DNA from: Magnetococcales bacterium
GTDB lineage: Bacteria > Pseudomonadota > Magnetococcia > Magnetococcales > UBA8363
Reading direction: 5' to 3'
Length of the DNA: 54,627 nt
Assembly (NCBI GenBank): GCA_002753515.1
Contig: PEAK01000026.1
Span: forward strand, 1-54,627
The translations under genes were made by a program, and so were the position numbers. The first letter of the stretch is position 1; each line of letters begins with the position of its first letter. Shown here piece by piece: positions 8,113 through 54,116 of the stretch. The notes beneath the pieces were generated by a model that searched no databases, was not told where the DNA came from, and saw nothing but the letters and a program-made list of their open reading frames with translations.

Positions 8113-11100
8113 TTACCGTTTTGTTATCATGGTGATCTGTATCGGGAGAGACCCCTGAATACGAGGGGTATAGGACTCATCAATCACATCCTGTTGCCAC
8201 TCCGAATCGTGCGTTGTTTTTGGCCACTGTTCATCCTTCTGCGCATATCGACGGGCAAATTCCCCCACCAACAGAAAAGAGCCGGTCGGTTCCTCCCTTT
8301 TTTTTCCGGTTTCGCGGAAGTAATCCCGTAGGCGGGCCGGATACTCAAGGGCGCGTCCGCCCAAGGTGCCGCTCTTTTCGTAGTGGTTCAATTCGCCCTG
8401 CACGTTCACATCGCAACCGGCACGGATGGGTTTCAGCTTCATGGCACCGGAGAGGATCGAAAAAATGGCAAGTGCTTGTTTAAAATTCTGCGTTACCAAA
8501 AAGTTGCTGTCATCCACGCTGTCTGGTTTAAAGCCCAGGAACGCATCCTTCTCCGAGCAATTATTCTCAATGAATCGTTGAATCTTGCCATTGGTTTCCC
8601 GTATCTGCCTCTCCAGCTCTGCACGAGCAGCGACTTGTGTCGATCCACACACATCCCACATGAGGATGAACCGGGGTACGGAGAGTTGACGGGGAGGCTC
8701 CTTGTATTGCTCCGCCCCGTAGATCCGCAGAAGCTGATCACAACCGCGAGTGATACGTAACACCATTTCCCGGATTTGCGGATAGAGTTCTGCAAACTTG
8801 GGCTGTTCGGGAGAACCTTTTAAACCTTCCAGCAATACATCCAGGTTTTTGGTCAGCGTGCGTCCGTTGACGGACGGATTGATTGTTTCCCCAACGATGG
8901 CGTCAGCCGCTTTAGCCTCGTGGATAAGCTTTTTCAGGTCTTCAAGGTTACAGACCAAGGTTTTCTTCCCCTTTCCTTCGGGAAGAGGGAAACCGGCCAC
9001 GTTCAACAATGACCGCAAGGTGCTGTTAACTCGGTGGGCGATATTGAGTGCTTTCTGGAAGTGGATTAGCCCTGCAAACGCACCTGATGTCTCTGATTCC
9101 TTGACATAATTTTCATTGAATGATTCAAAAAAATCATGCCACTGCCTTTCCAAATGAACATGGGGGCGGATCAACTTCTCTACGGTATCCACTGTCTCCT
9201 TCCGTCCCTCCCAGCATTCACCTTTTCTTTTTGCTTCGGCAGTGTAACGCGATGTTCTCTCAAGGAAATCATTAGACCTATTAAGATTGTCCGATGGATA
9301 TTTCCCGAGTGCATCCGGTTCCAGTTTTCCCATTTCATCCAGGGTCCGGGAGATTGAAGAGTGGGGATCATACAACCACAGGTTTAACTCTGCCTGAATG
9401 GCGTTGGTATAGTCCCCCAACTTGGCCGTGGTGGTCAGGGTGACCGGTGCCCGGGTGAGTACGGGATTGCCCGATCCGAAGAAACGTGCGAAAACCTCGG
9501 CCACGTCATTCACGGCATTTACGAGATTCCGGTCACTCAACCAGGGCGAATTTTCGTCGGCATAATTGTCCAGGATGATATTGCCCAGAGCGACACCGTC
9601 ATCTCTTGAGCCACCCTCAAAAATGAGAAATTCGCGCTTTCTTGCCCATTCCTGGAGTACGGTTGGTTTCCCTGGCTCAAATTCGCACTCCACTCGCGCA
9701 CCATAGAGGTGAAACCCCTTCTTGAAATTTCCGAGGTCCACAAAAGACCGCAAATCTCGGCTCCAATCGTTATCCAGCAACACTGCGGTACAAAATTTTT
9801 CAAATAAAACGGAAGGAACTCTTCCTTTGCGGATCAAATCCTTCTGATGGGCAGTTGGTTTGATATCATTGTTCTCCAGGGCTTTTTTCAGGGCATGGCT
9901 CAGCTTGTCGTGGAGCATTTTCAAGGCATAAACCGCCCGTTCCACAGATTCTTCTCCTACGCGGAACAGACGTAGCCAAACCTCTACGTTTTCGTCATTG
10001 GCAACTGGAACATAGCGGGGAACAACGGCACCATTATCTACCAGACGATCCAGGCAGTGGTGCAGGATGGCATGGCTGGTGCCTGGAAACCGCTGCTCGA
10101 CGATTTTCTCCAGGTGGCCGAGAGGGACACCGAAATCCAGCCGTGTCACCGGGTCATTGGCGGTATCCCGGAAGCAACGCTCTACACAGATGCTTTGCGC
10201 GTGGAACACGGTACGTAACAGATCATCGACATTGGTTGCTTTGGCGGCGAGGGCATCGAACTTTTCGTTGTACTCGGGTCGCACTTCGTGCGGGATGTGA
10301 TCCTTGGTAAGTAACACCTCTGGTTGGCGGGCATACCCTGCTTCGTTGACGGACTCTTGCAAATTTTGCCAAGTTGTCAGGAATTTCTCCTGGTTAATTC
10401 CCACAGGGATGCTTTGGTTGGGGCCAAGCAAATAGCGGAGACTTTTGGCATCGCAGCCAAAGAGGGTCGTTTCGTCGAATATGTCGCCAAGCATTTCGTG
10501 CAATACGGCTACCGCCCCCTTGAGCTTTCTTAGGCTGAGCAGGTAGTTAGCCCACATGACCAGAGAGCGTTGCGTCAGATGTTTTGCGGCAAGATGGGAT
10601 TCGACCTGTTTATCGGAGCGGTCATAAGATTCCAAACGTGCCAATGTTTCTTCCACGCGATGGAGGACGGGATGCCAGAGCGGTTCGATCTGGGCGCTGG
10701 GCCGCCATGTTGTCAGTTCACCAAATGTCCAGGGCCGTGGTGCCATGCAGACCATGGTGAGCTGTTTTCTATCGTGGGACAGAAAGAAGCGAAATTTATT
10801 GATCTGGTGGGGTTCCCCACTTTCCTGCACAGGCAAGGTCCACTTGTGCATCTGGGCAACGTCTGCTGTCCGGGCTACTTTGGAGGAGATGTTTTCCAGG
10901 TTTCCACCCTGTGTTTGGGCAAAGTCGTTTAATACCCGATCAAGCAGTTGCGGATTGAACGAGGCGTTCCGAAAACCGACTACCGGGAATTCGATATCCA
11001 GCGGACCACCCAGCATGCTGAAAGATTGGATCAATTGGTGTACGAACCCGGCGTTTTGGCCACGGGTGAGGGATTTGGCCCAGTACGCCAGATTTCTCTT

Positions 11101-11454
11101 GACGTTGGCTTTGACATCCGCACCAACGGCAAAGGGTGTGCCGGTAATCCTACTGTTCGTACCGGAGAAAATGATTTCTGCGGCGGCCATGATGCGTTGG
11201 AACGTGCTTCCGTAGGATACAAGGTCGTCAATGATCAGCAATTCCGTCCGTTGATGGTCGATCAAGGGAAGGGCGCGTTCACTGATGACTCGCTGAAGGA
11301 TCGATGGATCCAACAAACTTTCAGCAATCAGTACCTCAAGCAGGCGCGGTCCTTTGCGTGAAATAGCCAGGATCAGGCCATTATGTTGCCCAAGAAAGGC
11401 AACCCATTCTTTGAGTTGTCGCCGGTATCTTTGTGTAAACAGCGTTTCGGACAT
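8113..11454 (-). CDS. PRTase-like / class III nucleotidyl-cyclase-like fusion protein
   Basis: 1113 residues from ATG 11454 (a TTG 63 bases upstream is also in frame). Near the N-terminus, ELLIIDDLVSYGST (71-84) matches the phosphate-binding signature of type I phosphoribosyltransferases. A later segment, GGPLDIEFPVVGF, resembles the rest of such a domain. Residues about 250-900 are mostly helical with no family I can name. At the C-terminus, RFILMWDVCGST (928-939) matches the first metal-binding motif of class III adenylyl/guanylyl cyclases (F-x-D-x-x-G-S-T). DSVDDSNF (978-985) sits where the second metal aspartate would be, and GGRALEYPARLRDY (1032-1045) matches the G-x-x-V-N-x-A-A-R-L region. 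There is no signal peptide or membrane segment, so it is cytoplasmic. The reaction is unproven; synthesis of a nucleotide signal is the inference. A structured RNA transcript ends about 195 bp upstream on the same strand. Confidence 0.75.
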   Translation of the reverse strand: MSETLFTQRYRRQLKEWVAFLGQHNGLILAISRKGPRLLEVLIAESLLDPSILQRVISERALPLIDHQRTELLIIDDLVSYGSTFQRIMAAAEIIFSGTNSRITGTPFAVGADVKANVKRNLAYWAKSLTRGQNAGFVHQLIQSFSMLGGPLDIEFPVVGFRNASFNPQLLDRVLNDFAQTQGGNLENISSKVARTADVAQMHKWTLPVQESGEPHQINKFRFFLSHDRKQLTMVCMAPRPWTFGELTTWRPSAQIEPLWHPVLHRVEETLARLESYDRSDKQVESHLAAKHLTQRSLVMWANYLLSLRKLKGAVAVLHEMLGDIFDETTLFGCDAKSLRYLLGPNQSIPVGINQEKFLTTWQNLQESVNEAGYARQPEVLLTKDHIPHEVRPEYNEKFDALAAKATNVDDLLRTVFHAQSICVERCFRDTANDPVTRLDFGVPLGHLEKIVEQRFPGTSHAILHHCLDRLVDNGAVVPRYVPVANDENVEVWLRLFRVGEESVERAVYALKMLHDKLSHALKKALENNDIKPTAHQKDLIRKGRVPSVLFEKFCTAVLLDNDWSRDLRSFVDLGNFKKGFHLYGARVECEFEPGKPTVLQEWARKREFLIFEGGSRDDGVALGNIILDNYADENSPWLSDRNLVNAVNDVAEVFARFFGSGNPVLTRAPVTLTTTAKLGDYTNAIQAELNLWLYDPHSSISRTLDEMGKLEPDALGKYPSDNLNRSNDFLERTSRYTAEAKRKGECWEGRKETVDTVEKLIRPHVHLERQWHDFFESFNENYVKESETSGAFAGLIHFQKALNIAHRVNSTLRSLLNVAGFPLPEGKGKKTLVCNLEDLKKLIHEAKAADAIVGETINPSVNGRTLTKNLDVLLEGLKGSPEQPKFAELYPQIREMVLRITRGCDQLLRIYGAEQYKEPPRQLSVPRFILMWDVCGSTQVAARAELERQIRETNGKIQRFIENNCSEKDAFLGFKPDSVDDSNFLVTQNFKQALAIFSILSGAMKLKPIRAGCDVNVQGELNHYEKSGTLGGRALEYPARLRDYFRETGKKREEPTGSFLLVGEFARRYAQKDEQWPKTTHDSEWQQDVIDESYTPRIQGSLPIQITMITKR

Positions 11455-11648
11455 CGTTGTTAAACCATGAGATGGTAACGAGAATCGCTGGGTTGCCTGA
11501 ACGTCTCCAGTCCTCAAAGGCAGTCAGCCCTCAGTTCTGCGACGTTGTGAAACAATCAGCCAACATAGTAGTACTTCGGCAAGAAATCAAAGGCCAAAGA
11601 ATAAAGGAAACCGAAAGGATGGTCATTTGCGCTTGGGTTTGCCATGAT

Positions 11649-11682
11649 AAAAAAAGGCAGCCAAAGCGGTGCCCTGGCTGCC
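11649..11682 (-). terminator. Intrinsic terminator of the structured RNA
   Basis: On the minus strand GGCAGCCA and TGGCTGCC form an 8-bp stem around an 11-nt loop, followed by at least seven U. It lies between the structured transcript and the downstream PRTase-cyclase gene, so it ends that RNA or acts as an attenuator for the gene. Confidence 0.85.
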
Positions 11683-12116
11683 CTTACTATGGGCTGATTT
11701 GGACAAGACCTTGGAGATGGTCTCGTCGCGGAGGAGATCACTCTGGTGAGTGATGCCACTCAAGTTGCCACGGGGGCAACCTTCCTACCGATTGGTACGA
11801 AGCGCTGACCTTTGCATCAGGCGAAGCCAGCTTGATGTACCTGCGTCTTCCAAGCGCCGACGCTTTATTGGCAGCCATGGACTGCCTGGAATGGGTGGCT
11901 TATCGAGAAAAGGGTCGATAACCAAAGGAAACATTGCAAAACACGCACCGGCCCACTTTCTCCATGCCTATGTAGACAGCACCAACTGTTGTGGGAATTG
12001 TAGAACGCAACGCACCTCCAAATCTTTTAGTAAAGGGATGTGGGTGTGATCCGATCATTGGTAACGTGAATCTTTTACTCCCGTTTGGTAAAGGTTGACA
12101 CGAATAACTCCACACT
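11649..12116 (-). ncRNA. Candidate structured noncoding RNA, about 468 nt, unknown family
   Basis: A consensus sigma-70 promoter points into this stretch and a strong intrinsic terminator ends it. Between them at least eight perfect-stem hairpins follow one another. Plus-strand positions of the paired arms are: 11656-11663 with 11675-11682; 11706-11710 with 11719-11723; 11737-11743 with 11748-11754; 11764-11769 with 11775-11780; 11815-11819 with 11833-11837; 11843-11847 with 11859-11863; 11870-11874 with 11882-11886; and 11900-11906 with 11915-11921. I saw no tmRNA, RNase P or SRP signature. A 71-codon frame starting at GTG 12115 covers the 5' part but has no ribosome site and no recognisable product. 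It could be a standalone regulatory RNA or a very long structured leader for the gene downstream. Confidence 0.7.
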
Positions 12117-12122
12117 GTCCTG

Positions 12123-12151
12123 ACTATACCCGTTGGTCACCCTTTTGTCAA
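12123..12151 (-). promoter_or_regulatory. Sigma-70 promoter of the structured RNA
   Basis: On the minus strand TTGACA (12151-12146) is followed after exactly 17 bp by TATAGT (12128-12123). This is nearly perfect consensus and the strongest promoter I saw in the window. Transcription would start near 12116. Confidence 0.85.
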
Positions 12152-12234
12152 GGCCAGATTCTCGCTTGTTCGTGAATTTCAATTGCTATGACAGGATCGC
12201 AAAGGCGAAAAAAACGTTAGCGAATGTAAGCGGG

Positions 12235-12264
12235 TTGGTATTCCATGGTCGCCAAGTGTACAAT
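12235..12264 (+). promoter_or_regulatory. Probable promoter of the mdtABC-like operon
   Basis: TTGGTA (12235-12240), an 18-bp spacer and TACAAT (12259-12264) lie about 38 bp before the adaptor gene. It diverges from the structured-RNA promoter about 85 bp away. Confidence 0.5.
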
Positions 12265-12301
12265 GCGCAACTTACCTTAATTATGGAGCGATTTGGTAAT
12301 C

Positions 12302-37869: not shown

Positions 37870-40722
37870 ATGAAAAGAGTATTGATCATTGGTGGTATGG
37901 CTTCCGGTCCAAAATTTGCCATGGCTTTGAAAAGGCGGCGTCCTGACGTCGAGATTACTATCATTGAAATGAGTGATTATCTATCATTTGGGGCTTGTGT
38001 TCTTCCCCACCTTCTATCAGGTGTAGTGGCAGACGTAGAAGCGCTCAATCGTACTCCCTTAGGGGAAGAAAGAAATTCAACTTTCTTTTTGAAAAATGGT
38101 AATATCGCTACGCAAACGAAAACAGAGGCCCTTTGGGTTGATCGTTTACGAAGAAAGGTGATTACCCGGTCCTTATTATCGGAAGATAAAGTCATAGACG
38201 TGGGTTTTTTTGCCGGTCACGCCAGTGATTTTGATGTGATTCAAAAAATGGGTTTTATCAAAGACAATCAACTCACAGAGAAATTTTTTGATCAAGTGAG
38301 ACGTAAGGGAGTAGATGCTGAACATGACGAGTTAACGGTATCGACAGGTGGTGATTCATCACCGTATCGTCGATTTATTGACTTTCTGTTCCATCGATCC
38401 ATTTTGCTTGCGTTTTCATACGACAAATTATTCCTGGGTACTGGATCCACGGCGACGATTCCCCCCCTGACCTGCTATGACGATACAAAAATAATAGACA
38501 ACGTCCTGGTTTTTAAAAATGCTTTTTTGGTACGTACGATGGACGATGGTCGAGCAATTTCCAAAAGATTAAAAGTAGATAGTCCAAAGATGGTCACGAT
38601 TGTCGGTGGTGGGCTGATTGGTGTTGAGGTTGCTGCGGCGGTGCGAGATTTTGACGAGAATGTCGCTGTGCAGATTATTGAGATGAGGCCATCGATACTT
38701 TCAGATATGATAGAAGCTGATATATCTATCCATGCACAAAATTACCTGATAAGGAAACGTATAACACTCAATACCTCCACAAAAATTACAATCGTTCGTG
38801 GTTCGGATGGGTTCGCACGCACCCTTGAAACCGATCGAGGAGAATTATTTTCAACGGATTTGCTGTTGATTTGCACTGGCGTCCGTCCCAACGCACAGCT
38901 CGCGACACGGATCGGTTTGGATATTGGCGTAACCGGGGGAATACGGGTCAATGAACGCATGGAGACTTCCGATTCTGATATTCTTGCGGCAGGCGACTGT
39001 ATCGAAAACACTCACCGAGTCAGTGGGAAGCCAGTCGTTGCTCCCTTTGGTGACCTAGCCAATATTCAAGCACGCGTTGCTGCTGCAAATCTTTGCGGCC
39101 AGTCCATGGTATTCGAAGGAGTTATAGGAACGAGTATTGCAGAGATTGGCATAGAGAAAGATTCCTTCGGTGGTATCATCGCTCGTTATTCAGTCGGTGC
39201 TACTGGTCTGACTGAAAAAGAAGCTATGGAAGCTGGTTTTGATGTGGAGACTGTTTTGTTGCCGAGTAAAGATAGAATTTATTCTATGCCTGAAGCAGAA
39301 ATGATCTATCTGAAAATGATCGCAGACAAAAAAAATAGACGTTTACTTGGTGTTCAGGGAAGTGGCTTAGGGGATATCAATCGTCGCATAGCTTCAGCGG
39401 CAGCTTGGATTTATACAGGTGCATCCATTGATCAGTTATCCGTACTTGACCTTCCATATGCTCCATCGTATTCACCCGCTATCGATCCACTCATCATGGG
39501 AGCATGGGTCTTACAGAATAAAATTGCAGGACTATTTAGTGGGATCAAGCCACAAGAATTATTCGATAAACTTAAGAATCGCGAAATATTTCAATTGATT
39601 GATGTCCGTGAACCTATCGAATTTATGAATGAATCAATTCCTGGTTCTATGTTGATCCCTCTTAATGAGATCGAAAATTGGCTTTCTGATGCTCCTCGCA
39701 ATCAGGAATTCGTTCTTGTTTGTCTCGTTGGTCTAAGAAGTTATCTTGCTGCCAGAAAAATGCTATCCATGGGTTTTACTAATGTTAGGGTTATGGAAGG
39801 AGGTCTGGCTCTCTGGGGTGGCAAGATAGTCGGTGGAGATGATTCGGGCCAAGACTGCTGTATGATTCGATCCTATCTCATTGATAATCCTTCTGCTACA
39901 CAAAATTTACTCGATCTTGCTCCCAGATCGCCAAATTTAAAGAATGAAACGGTTAATATAGATGTATTAAACAGACGTAACGACCTGAGAACAAATATAA
40001 ATCATCCGCTATCACTGGAAACCGAGGGCAAATTGGTCTTTCAGGGCGTTTCTAGGAACATCAGCAGGAAAGGGATTTTCCTTTTTCTTGGTTATATGCC
40101 ACGTGGCATTCAGCTAGGGGAAGCAGGAAATGTATCAATCAATACTTGGTGCGGCACGCAATTCCGATTCCCTTGTAATGTCCAACATGTTTCTCAGGAT
40201 GGTGTCGGATTGGCGGTTCATGACTGGGACTTATTTGTCAATTCCTTGATTCGTGACATGGCAATTTTCAATACTGGAGAAAAGACGTTCGATGATGACC
40301 ATGTTAAAATGTGGAATATTCTCGATAATTTTTTTAATACATCGTTAAACCACGATAGTCAAAAAATATGGAGTACCGCACTACTTGATTGTGCTCGCAA
40401 GCATTTCTGGATAGAAGAAATAATGATGAAAAAAAATCGCTATCCAGGTTTGGATCGTCATATTGAGCATCATCAGCACTTTATTGACCAGGCTGAGGCG
40501 TTACATAATACAATTAATGAAAGTGATGTCGGAAACCCCGATGATCCTTTATCCTTTCATCTCGTCTCAAAGAAAAAGTTTGTGGAGTTCTTGAAATTTT
40601 GGCTTGTTCGGCACACGAATAGTATGGATCAAAGCATGGTCACTTATTTTCGCTATAAAGGTATTCGTGCAGTAATAAATAGTGACGACTATGACGTAGA
40701 AAATTCCAAATATGGACATTAA
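37870..40722 (+). CDS. CoA-disulfide reductase-like / rhodanese / PilZ / bacteriohemerythrin fusion
   Basis: 950 residues, ATG 37870 with agga eight bases upstream. Module 1 (1-540) is a flavin NADH:disulfide reductase: FAD motif IIGGMASGPKFAMA, the single redox cysteine Cys43 in SFGACVLPHLL as in CoA-disulfide reductases, NAD motif VTIVGGGLIGVEVA (242-255), and FAD motif ILAAGD. Module 2 (about 560-652) is rhodanese, with IDVREPIEF and active Cys618 in VCLVGLRS. Module 3 (about 700-790) is PilZ, with R703-x3-R707 and N730-x-S-x-x-G735 for c-di-GMP. Module 4 (about 800-930) is hemerythrin with all seven di-iron ligands visible: His811, His845, Glu849, His864, His868, His915, Asp920. About 90 extra residues (roughly 95-180) interrupt the first FAD half. 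The gene is clearly more AT-rich than its neighbours and ends inside a repeat. It is probably a persulfide or CoA-disulfide reductase controlled by oxygen and c-di-GMP; that role is inferred. Confidence 0.88.
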   Translation: MKRVLIIGGMASGPKFAMALKRRRPDVEITIIEMSDYLSFGACVLPHLLSGVVADVEALNRTPLGEERNSTFFLKNGNIATQTKTEALWVDRLRRKVITRSLLSEDKVIDVGFFAGHASDFDVIQKMGFIKDNQLTEKFFDQVRRKGVDAEHDELTVSTGGDSSPYRRFIDFLFHRSILLAFSYDKLFLGTGSTATIPPLTCYDDTKIIDNVLVFKNAFLVRTMDDGRAISKRLKVDSPKMVTIVGGGLIGVEVAAAVRDFDENVAVQIIEMRPSILSDMIEADISIHAQNYLIRKRITLNTSTKITIVRGSDGFARTLETDRGELFSTDLLLICTGVRPNAQLATRIGLDIGVTGGIRVNERMETSDSDILAAGDCIENTHRVSGKPVVAPFGDLANIQARVAAANLCGQSMVFEGVIGTSIAEIGIEKDSFGGIIARYSVGATGLTEKEAMEAGFDVETVLLPSKDRIYSMPEAEMIYLKMIADKKNRRLLGVQGSGLGDINRRIASAAAWIYTGASIDQLSVLDLPYAPSYSPAIDPLIMGAWVLQNKIAGLFSGIKPQELFDKLKNREIFQLIDVREPIEFMNESIPGSMLIPLNEIENWLSDAPRNQEFVLVCLVGLRSYLAARKMLSMGFTNVRVMEGGLALWGGKIVGGDDSGQDCCMIRSYLIDNPSATQNLLDLAPRSPNLKNETVNIDVLNRRNDLRTNINHPLSLETEGKLVFQGVSRNISRKGIFLFLGYMPRGIQLGEAGNVSINTWCGTQFRFPCNVQHVSQDGVGLAVHDWDLFVNSLIRDMAIFNTGEKTFDDDHVKMWNILDNFFNTSLNHDSQKIWSTALLDCARKHFWIEEIMMKKNRYPGLDRHIEHHQHFIDQAEALHNTINESDVGNPDDPLSFHLVSKKKFVEFLKFWLVRHTNSMDQSMVTYFRYKGIRAVINSDDYDVENSKYGH

Positions 40723-40815
40723 ACCGCAACCAATGTGGGATATGCAGTTTTCCAGCGTCATTCCCGCTTTCGCGGGAATGACAGAAACTACGCATCCCAA
40801 GATGGTTGCGGTTTA
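40720..40815. repeat. 96-bp palindromic repeat with TAAACCGCAAC ends
   Basis: The ends are perfect 11-bp inverted repeats, TAAACCGCAAC and GTTGCGGTTTA. Inside lies the hairpin gtcattcccgctttcgcggg with its aatgac partner. The first three bases are the stop codon of the upstream flavoprotein fusion. A second, longer copy is at 46765-46915 and a degenerate half copy is near 8072. It resembles a non-autonomous MITE/REPIN-type element and may also act as a terminator. Confidence 0.85.
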
Positions 40816-40826
40816 GATGCCAGGCC

Positions 40827-46764: not shown

Positions 46765-46915
46765 TAAACCGCAACTATCTTGGGATGCGCAGTTCTTGTC
46801 ATCCCCGCGAAGGCGGGGATCCAGAAAGTCAGGGAAAGGTGTGTAGACTCCCTGGATCCCCGCTTTCGCGGGGATGACGCTAGAAAACTACGTATCCCGC
46901 GCTGGTTGCGGTTTA
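46765..46915. repeat. 151-bp repeat with TAAACCGCAAC ends and paired inner palindromes
   Basis: It has the same 11-bp inverted ends as the copy at 40720-40815. The interior holds gtcatccccgcgaaggcggg and its inverse ending gcggggatgac, separated by a 30-bp spacer. The right end lies inside the minus-strand glycosyltransferase gene and encodes its last residues (TKPQPARDT) and stop. Confidence 0.85.
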
Positions 46916-53390: not shown

Positions 53391-54116
53391 TTACTGTTGT
53401 TGATTAGGCTGACCGGGTTGGCCGGGCTGGCCGGGTTGACCGGGTTTACCAGGTTGGCCGGGCTGACCGGGTTTACCAGGCTGGCCGGGTTGACCGGGTT
53501 TACCAGGCTGGCCGGGTTGACCGGGTTGGTTAGGTTGACCGGGTTGGTTAGGTTGACCGGGTTTACCAGGCTGGCCGGGTTGACCGGGTTGGTTAGGTTG
53601 ACCGGGTTGGTTAGGTTGACCGGGTTGGTTAGGTTGACCGGGTTGGTTAGGTTGACCGGGTTGGTTAGGTTGACCGGGTTGGTTAGGTTGACCGGGTTGG
53701 CTAGGTTGACCGGGTTGGTTAGGTTGACCGGGTTGGTTAGGTTGACCGGGTTGGTTAGGTTTACCAGGCTGGCCAGGTTGACCGGGTTGGCCAGGTTGAC
53801 CGGGTTGGCCAGGTTGACCGGGTTGGCCAGGTTGACCGGGTTGACCGGGTTGGTTAGGTTGACCGGGTTGGCCAGGTTGACCAGGTTGACCAGGTTGACC
53901 GGGTTGACCGGGTTGACCGGGTTTACTAGGCTGGCCTTGTTGACCGGGTTGGTTAGGTTGACCGGGTTGACCGGGTTTGCCAGGCTGGCCTTGTTGCATA
54001 CCCTGATCCTGCATAGGCTGTCCAGGCTGACCGGGTTGCTCAGCAAGAACTAAGCTTGAGGCACCAGCCATGGAAATTGCAGCAGCAACGCTCAATACGG
54101 TAAGTAATTTTTTCAC
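53391..54116 (-). CDS. Secreted collagen-like Pro-Gly-Gln-(Pro/Asn) repeat protein
   Basis: 241 residues from GTG 54116, with aaggag seven bases upstream. The signal peptide is [20 protein letters not shown], cleaved near LVLA-EQ. The rest is almost wholly the triplets PGQ, PNQ and PGK (for example [12 protein letters not shown]). This gives a collagen-like Gly-every-third pattern, interrupted where Asn replaces Gly. It has no hydrophobic core and no cysteines, and should be an extended secreted polymer. Function is unknown; matrix, surface coat or mineral-binding roles are all possible. It has its own terminator. Confidence 0.75.
53403..53998. repeat. Short tandem coding repeats (9/18 bp) of the PGQ protein
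   Basis: Units such as ttgaccgggttggttagg (18 bp) and ttgaccgggttggccagg are repeated dozens of times. The plus strand carries long open frames only because the unit length is a multiple of three. Confidence 0.9.

Follow-up and report, generated by a model that had tools for sequence, protein, structure and literature searches.

A candidate new family of free-standing structured noncoding RNA in two Magnetococcales genomes

Beyond the housekeeping set, few large structured RNAs are known from bacteria, and several of these lack an assigned function. Housekeeping RNAs are expected in essentially all relatives of a carrier, and two of them, RNase P RNA and tmRNA, are similar in size to the RNA described here; tmRNA is recognizable by its tRNA-like domain and tag peptide. 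The order Magnetococcales, a lineage best known for magnetotaxis, is the source of the DNA analyzed in this work, a stretch of 54,627 nucleotides (hereafter, the window) from a 4.3-Mb genome. A sequence-only reading of the window had proposed an undescribed structured RNA near position 11,900, in which no tmRNA, RNase P, SRP or 6S signature was recognized, and had suggested a search of Rfam. That search, against 4227 families including RNase P, tmRNA, 6S, SRP, OLE, ROOL, GOLLD and HEARO, was negative for the window RNA: no match reached the gathering thresholds in the whole window, and none was found over 11500–12300 even at E ≤ 5. ARAGORN detected no tRNA and no tmRNA in the window, so that the reported lack of housekeeping signatures was borne out. 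The homologue described below gave just one spurious microRNA match in Rfam (E about 1.2), located on its terminator. RNase P RNA, tmRNA, 6S RNA and SRP RNA resemble the window RNA in being stand-alone structured transcription units, but the window RNA has no Rfam or ARAGORN match and occurs in just 2 of the 48 class genomes, too few for a housekeeping RNA, and this identity was therefore rejected.

The closest described systems are thus to be sought among the other large RNAs. ROOL and GOLLD have no assigned function; ROOL env-120 is 659 nt in length, and GOLLD is often longer than 800 nt (PMC12286853). Like the window RNA, OLE, ROOL and GOLLD are long, free-standing or intergenic, highly structured and patchily distributed. 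The window RNA differs from all three in having no Rfam match and in lying here outside a recognizable prophage setting and without adjoining tRNAs, and from ROOL and GOLLD in being shorter (about 450 nt). A further characteristic of ROOL- and GOLLD-type RNAs is homo-oligomerization, with several copies building a cage. As far as can be told from this comparison, it would be a previously undescribed family of an established kind, that of large structured RNAs such as ROOL and GOLLD.

A consensus scan placed a predicted sigma-70 promoter on the minus strand, with a −35 element TTGACA (12151–12146), a 17-nt spacer and a −10 element TATAGT (12128–12123), from which transcription would start near 12115–12117. 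With both strands considered, this was the window's sole 11/12 match with 16–18-nt spacing. The promoter had been called perfect in the sequence-only reading; the match is real and unique in the window, but at 11/12 it is near-consensus rather than perfect. The strong intrinsic terminator noted in the same reading was recovered by the scan, at a distance of ~468 nt from the promoter (Table 1). The RNA is therefore probably transcribed as a free-standing unit, from a dedicated promoter (in the window member only) to an intrinsic terminator.

The 469-nt segment was predicted to fold with −169 kcal/mol (z −5.1), and 0 of 100 shuffles were equally stable. The folding excess of the 3′ half (about 11650–11920) is strand-specific and far beyond that of shuffles: z values in 200-nt windows over 11500–11899 were −5.6 to −6.3 on the minus strand, one of these windows not including the terminator, and only −2.2 to −3.0 on the plus strand. 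The 5′ half (11900–12199) showed no energy excess in 200-nt windows and remained at background level. At least eight perfect-stem hairpins had been read in the RNA; roughly eight are present, all in the 3′ half, but several contain mismatches and the 5′ half is not hairpin-rich. The description of 11656–11921 as nearly all paired was too strong, the mean pairing probability in the 3′ part being 0.64.

Table 1. Predicted features of the RNA locus, in window coordinates
Feature	Position	Strand	Basis or comparison with G026
Predicted sigma-70 promoter, TTGACA-17-TATAGT	12123–12151	minus	Consensus scan, 11/12
Predicted structured noncoding RNA, about 468 nt (~450 letters)	11649–12117	minus	Fold z −5.1; G026 homologue
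5′ core with conserved motifs ACGGGAGNAAAnGAUU (from 12084), GGAGGUGCG (from 12019) and GGAGAAAGNGGGNCGGUGNGUNUUUUGCANUG (11963–11932)	11932–12084	minus	MAFFT alignment A4
Core helix D, GAUUC 12072–12068 / GGAUC 12052–12048	12048–12072	minus	5/5 pairs kept, one CG→UG
Core helix C, CACAUCC 12042–12036 / GGAGGUG 12019–12013, one mismatch	12013–12042	minus	6/6 pairs kept
Core helix A, CGUUGC 12012–12007 / GCAAUG 11937–11932	11932–12012	minus	4/6 pairs kept, one UA→CG double change
Core helix B, CCCAC 11995–11991 / GUGGG 11956–11952	11952–11995	minus	5/5 pairs kept
Hairpin UUAUCGA/UCGAUAA	11900–11921	minus	Strong in window; only 4/7 pairs kept
Hairpin GGCAG/CUGCC	11870–11886	minus	5/5 pairs kept, invariant
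3′ multi-hairpin domain (R1), five tandem hairpins inside a weak closing stem	11690–11830	minus	R1 finds G026
Intrinsic terminator, 15-bp stem and U-tract	11653–11685	minus	Consensus scan

Two Magnetococcales from different families share a collinear RNA-coding segment of ~430 nt with conserved secondary structure. BLAST of the RNA against the 48 class genomes returned only chance matches of 17–44 nt. A 141-nt covariance model (R1), built from the single sequence of window positions 11690–11830 and its predicted fold, was then searched against 48 Magnetococcia-like genomes and gave one full-length match besides itself, at G026:C9:74447–74590 (E 5.1e-9, 45.7 bits); the next-best match had an E value of 0.24. 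G026 belongs to the same order, Magnetococcales, and to a different family. The whole RNA is collinear in G026: window positions 12085–11664 aligned at 61% identity with sensitive scoring (E 4e-21), and an nhmmer comparison of the window with G026 gave E 1.2e-23 over 12091–11674. The 5′ half alone, which lies outside R1, matched at 65% identity (E about 2e-10) directly upstream and in the same order. The two modules are separated by 91 nt in the window and by 88 nt in G026, and their order is identical. When 200 random window pieces were compared with the G026 locus as a control, a single match of clear significance (E 4e-9) was obtained, at a shared HD-domain gene, and five more fell below 0.01, all with E ≥ 4e-4. 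The G026 RNA folds better than its shuffles (z −3.35). At the position of the window terminator it has a different, terminator-like 13-bp hairpin with a weak U-tract, and a sigma-70 promoter scan at the G026 locus gave no match.

The window and G026 sequences were aligned with plain MAFFT (alignment A4), on which a 13-helix structure of 80 pairs was scored; this composite was partly chosen with both sequences in view, and core helices A–D were drawn in that way. The long-range pairs of the full-length minimum-energy fold, most of which are disrupted in G026, were excluded. The number of pairs kept in G026 was 67 of 80 (91.9% of all cells over both sequences). Both sides had changed in 11 of the 80 pairs, compared with 0–1 in slid controls, and 0 of 500 shuffles reached the observed value; as there are two sequences only, this covariation carries no formal significance and 0/500 is not a probability. 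Covariation in relatives had been named in the sequence-only reading as a check on the RNA, and these paired changes, together with the negative Rfam result, uphold its description as an undescribed structured RNA. In the R1 domain, whose structure was derived from the window alone, 38 of 46 pairs are kept, nine of them with double changes. The 3′ hairpins best supported by double changes are helix 12 (four), helices 8 and 9 (two each) and helix 13 (one), and the best-supported core helices are A (UA→CG) and B, which has one AU→UA double change and two CG→UG changes. All pairs of core helix C are invariant between the window and G026, and hence show no covariation. The spacing from GGAGGUGCG to GGAGAAAGNGGGNCGGUGNGUNUUUUGCANUG is exactly 47 nt in both sequences. 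A second single-sequence model (R2, 11764–11925) found nothing else, consistent with the low conservation of its stretch, which holds the least conserved part of the RNA (47–55% identity), and with an automatic structure that was probably wrong.

We are highly confident that the locus encodes a genuine conserved structured noncoding RNA. With respect to its role, we propose that it may be a stable structured RNA acting in trans. The 5′ core, in which near-invariant A/G-rich segments flank four helices, would bind protein or RNA, or do chemistry, and its near-invariant single-stranded and loop segments would be the likely contact or active segments. Because its shape is kept while its letters change, the 3′ hairpin row may be read as a scaffold or stability domain. 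Neither a catalytic nor a protein-binding motif was recognized in the RNA, and the proposed mechanism thus rests on architecture and on the elimination of alternatives; taken by itself, an RNP- or scaffold-type mechanism is a tentative suggestion that falls somewhat short of probable. The combined reading, a free-standing structured noncoding RNA that belongs to a new family and acts in trans as an RNP- or scaffold-type RNA, is one that we favor slightly. It is unlikely that the RNA is the first example of a large bacterial RNA class with a new mechanism, such as a new ribozyme, RNP or RNA-only assembly, which would travel among Magnetococcales as an accessory element. The locus adds a further candidate family of large RNA, with a predicted promoter in one member, a terminator and a testable secondary structure, and its two members already supply concrete helices and motifs. 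Should the RNA prove to be an RNP component or a multimer, it would provide an independent further example of how large RNAs function; should it prove to be a regulator, it would show the extent of lineage-specific families that are invisible to BLAST and missed by RNA catalogues.

The RNA is patchily distributed and probably accessory, with two known members. The carriers among the 48 class genomes are G000 and G026, and a laxer search of 39 other genomes gave only weak matches with chance-level scores. Model R3 was applied in two samplings to about 400 phylum genomes, with the best seven candidates per genome scored, and returned the two known members and a weak match in G003. Weak R3 matches in G003 and G028 were judged to be due to chance after the DNA was read. 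BLAST of the RNA against phages and plasmids yielded nothing, and three pattern scans of viral contigs gave either no match or chance matches that failed models R1 and R3.

Such patchiness (2 of 48 genomes) would also suit a noncoding RNA partner in a defence or mobile system, such as a retron, a DRT or the omega-RNA of IscB/TnpB, possibly working with the protein encoded downstream. The neighbours of the RNA in the window are a divergent RND efflux operon and a same-strand gene (8113–11454, minus) for a protein of 1113 aa. By eye, this protein has a type I phosphoribosyltransferase-like motif, LLIIDDLVSYGST, near its N-terminus and a cyclase-like WDVCGST segment near its C-terminus; it has no match in Pfam, NCBIfam or PADLOC, and its AlphaFold model, with a pLDDT of 34, was uninformative. 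The gene is likewise rare and mobile, with one relative in 299 phylum genomes (G005, same genus, 36% identity) at a different chromosomal place. However, only about 150 bp lie upstream of the G005 gene and no such RNA occurs there, the G026 RNA has no such gene adjoining it, and the linkage of the RNA to the 1113-aa gene was dropped once that gene's homologues had been followed. Retron and DRT noncoding RNAs are also structured RNAs in a possibly accessory locus, and have a reverse transcriptase gene adjacent; here, Pfam detected no reverse transcriptase, transposase or nuclease domain in the scanned neighbours in the window or in G026, where an ORF at the contig end could be read in part. On this evidence, together with the negative PADLOC result for the downstream protein, we consider a defence or mobile partner improbable. 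As a separate observation, the short upstream region of the G005 gene (L004 4749–4916) contains, by eye, a near-consensus promoter, TTGACA-17-TACAAT.

A large regulatory sRNA, acting by base pairing or by CsrB-like protein sequestration, is quite unlikely as well. The predicted promoter and terminator of the RNA and its several conserved GGA-containing segments would fit such a role, and CsrB/RsmY-like decoy RNAs carry many GGA motifs. GGA is not enriched here, however (7 occurrences against 6.6 expected in the window, and 11 against 8.3 in G026), so that a CsrB-like decoy is not favored, and two of the conserved GGA segments lie in stems. For a base-pairing sRNA, the long conserved multi-helix structure exceeds what is needed.

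A cis-acting leader or attenuator of the 8113–11454 gene would account for the shared strand and for the placing of the terminator, about 195 nt ahead of the likely ATG. We regard it as very improbable, because the next gene in G026 is convergent and unrelated, the G005 relative of the downstream gene is without the RNA, and a possible separate promoter, TTGATT-17-TATGTT, was seen by eye between the terminator and the gene, below the level listed by the scan. The G026 RNA is flanked by a convergent gene for an HD-domain regulator and by a divergent, incomplete ORF at the end of the contig, and the G003 ortholog of the window efflux adaptor has a different upstream region. The lack of shared flanking genes favors a free-standing accessory RNA gene over a conserved cis leader. 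Membership in a riboswitch or attenuator family was rejected, as the two RNA loci compared have no conserved downstream gene. The divergent G026 ORF (L058 of G026:C9, 9092–9273) begins with MGDHDNGYKRLFSHQTMVRDLM and appeared by eye to be Rpn-family PD-(D/E)XK-like; Pfam gave no support for this likeness on its 39-residue fragment.

The RNA region does not code for protein. A decayed protein gene or chance hairpins are very improbable: a few codon-like matches (such as GRCVFC in both sequences) and a 111-aa open frame in G026 would suit a decayed gene, but three-base periodicity of mismatches between the window and G026 is absent in every ungapped block, alignment gaps are of 1, 2 and 4 nt and so not multiples of three, reading frames and stops are not common to the two sequences, six-frame translation of the region gave no Pfam match, and compensatory changes speak against chance hairpins. 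The GRCVFC run was taken to be a coincidence, since almost nothing is shared among the codons that separate it from an upstream GGAL(R/N)S run.

By GC-corrected energy alone, other places in the window rank above the RNA, namely two palindromic repeats (around 40.7 kb and 46.7 kb) and the coding repeats around 53.5 kb; the case for the RNA therefore rests on conservation and not on energy. The two palindromic repeats (about 40720–40816 and 46766–46890) are MITE-like, have the core GTCAT(T/C)CCCGC and form the most stable folds of the window. They share the flanks AAACCGCAACC and TGGGATNNGCAG, and the first (about 40720–40816) also holds the inverse copy GGTTGCGGTTT. The gene at 53391–54116 (minus) encodes a secreted-looking protein that consists almost wholly of GQPGQPN-type collagen-like repeats.
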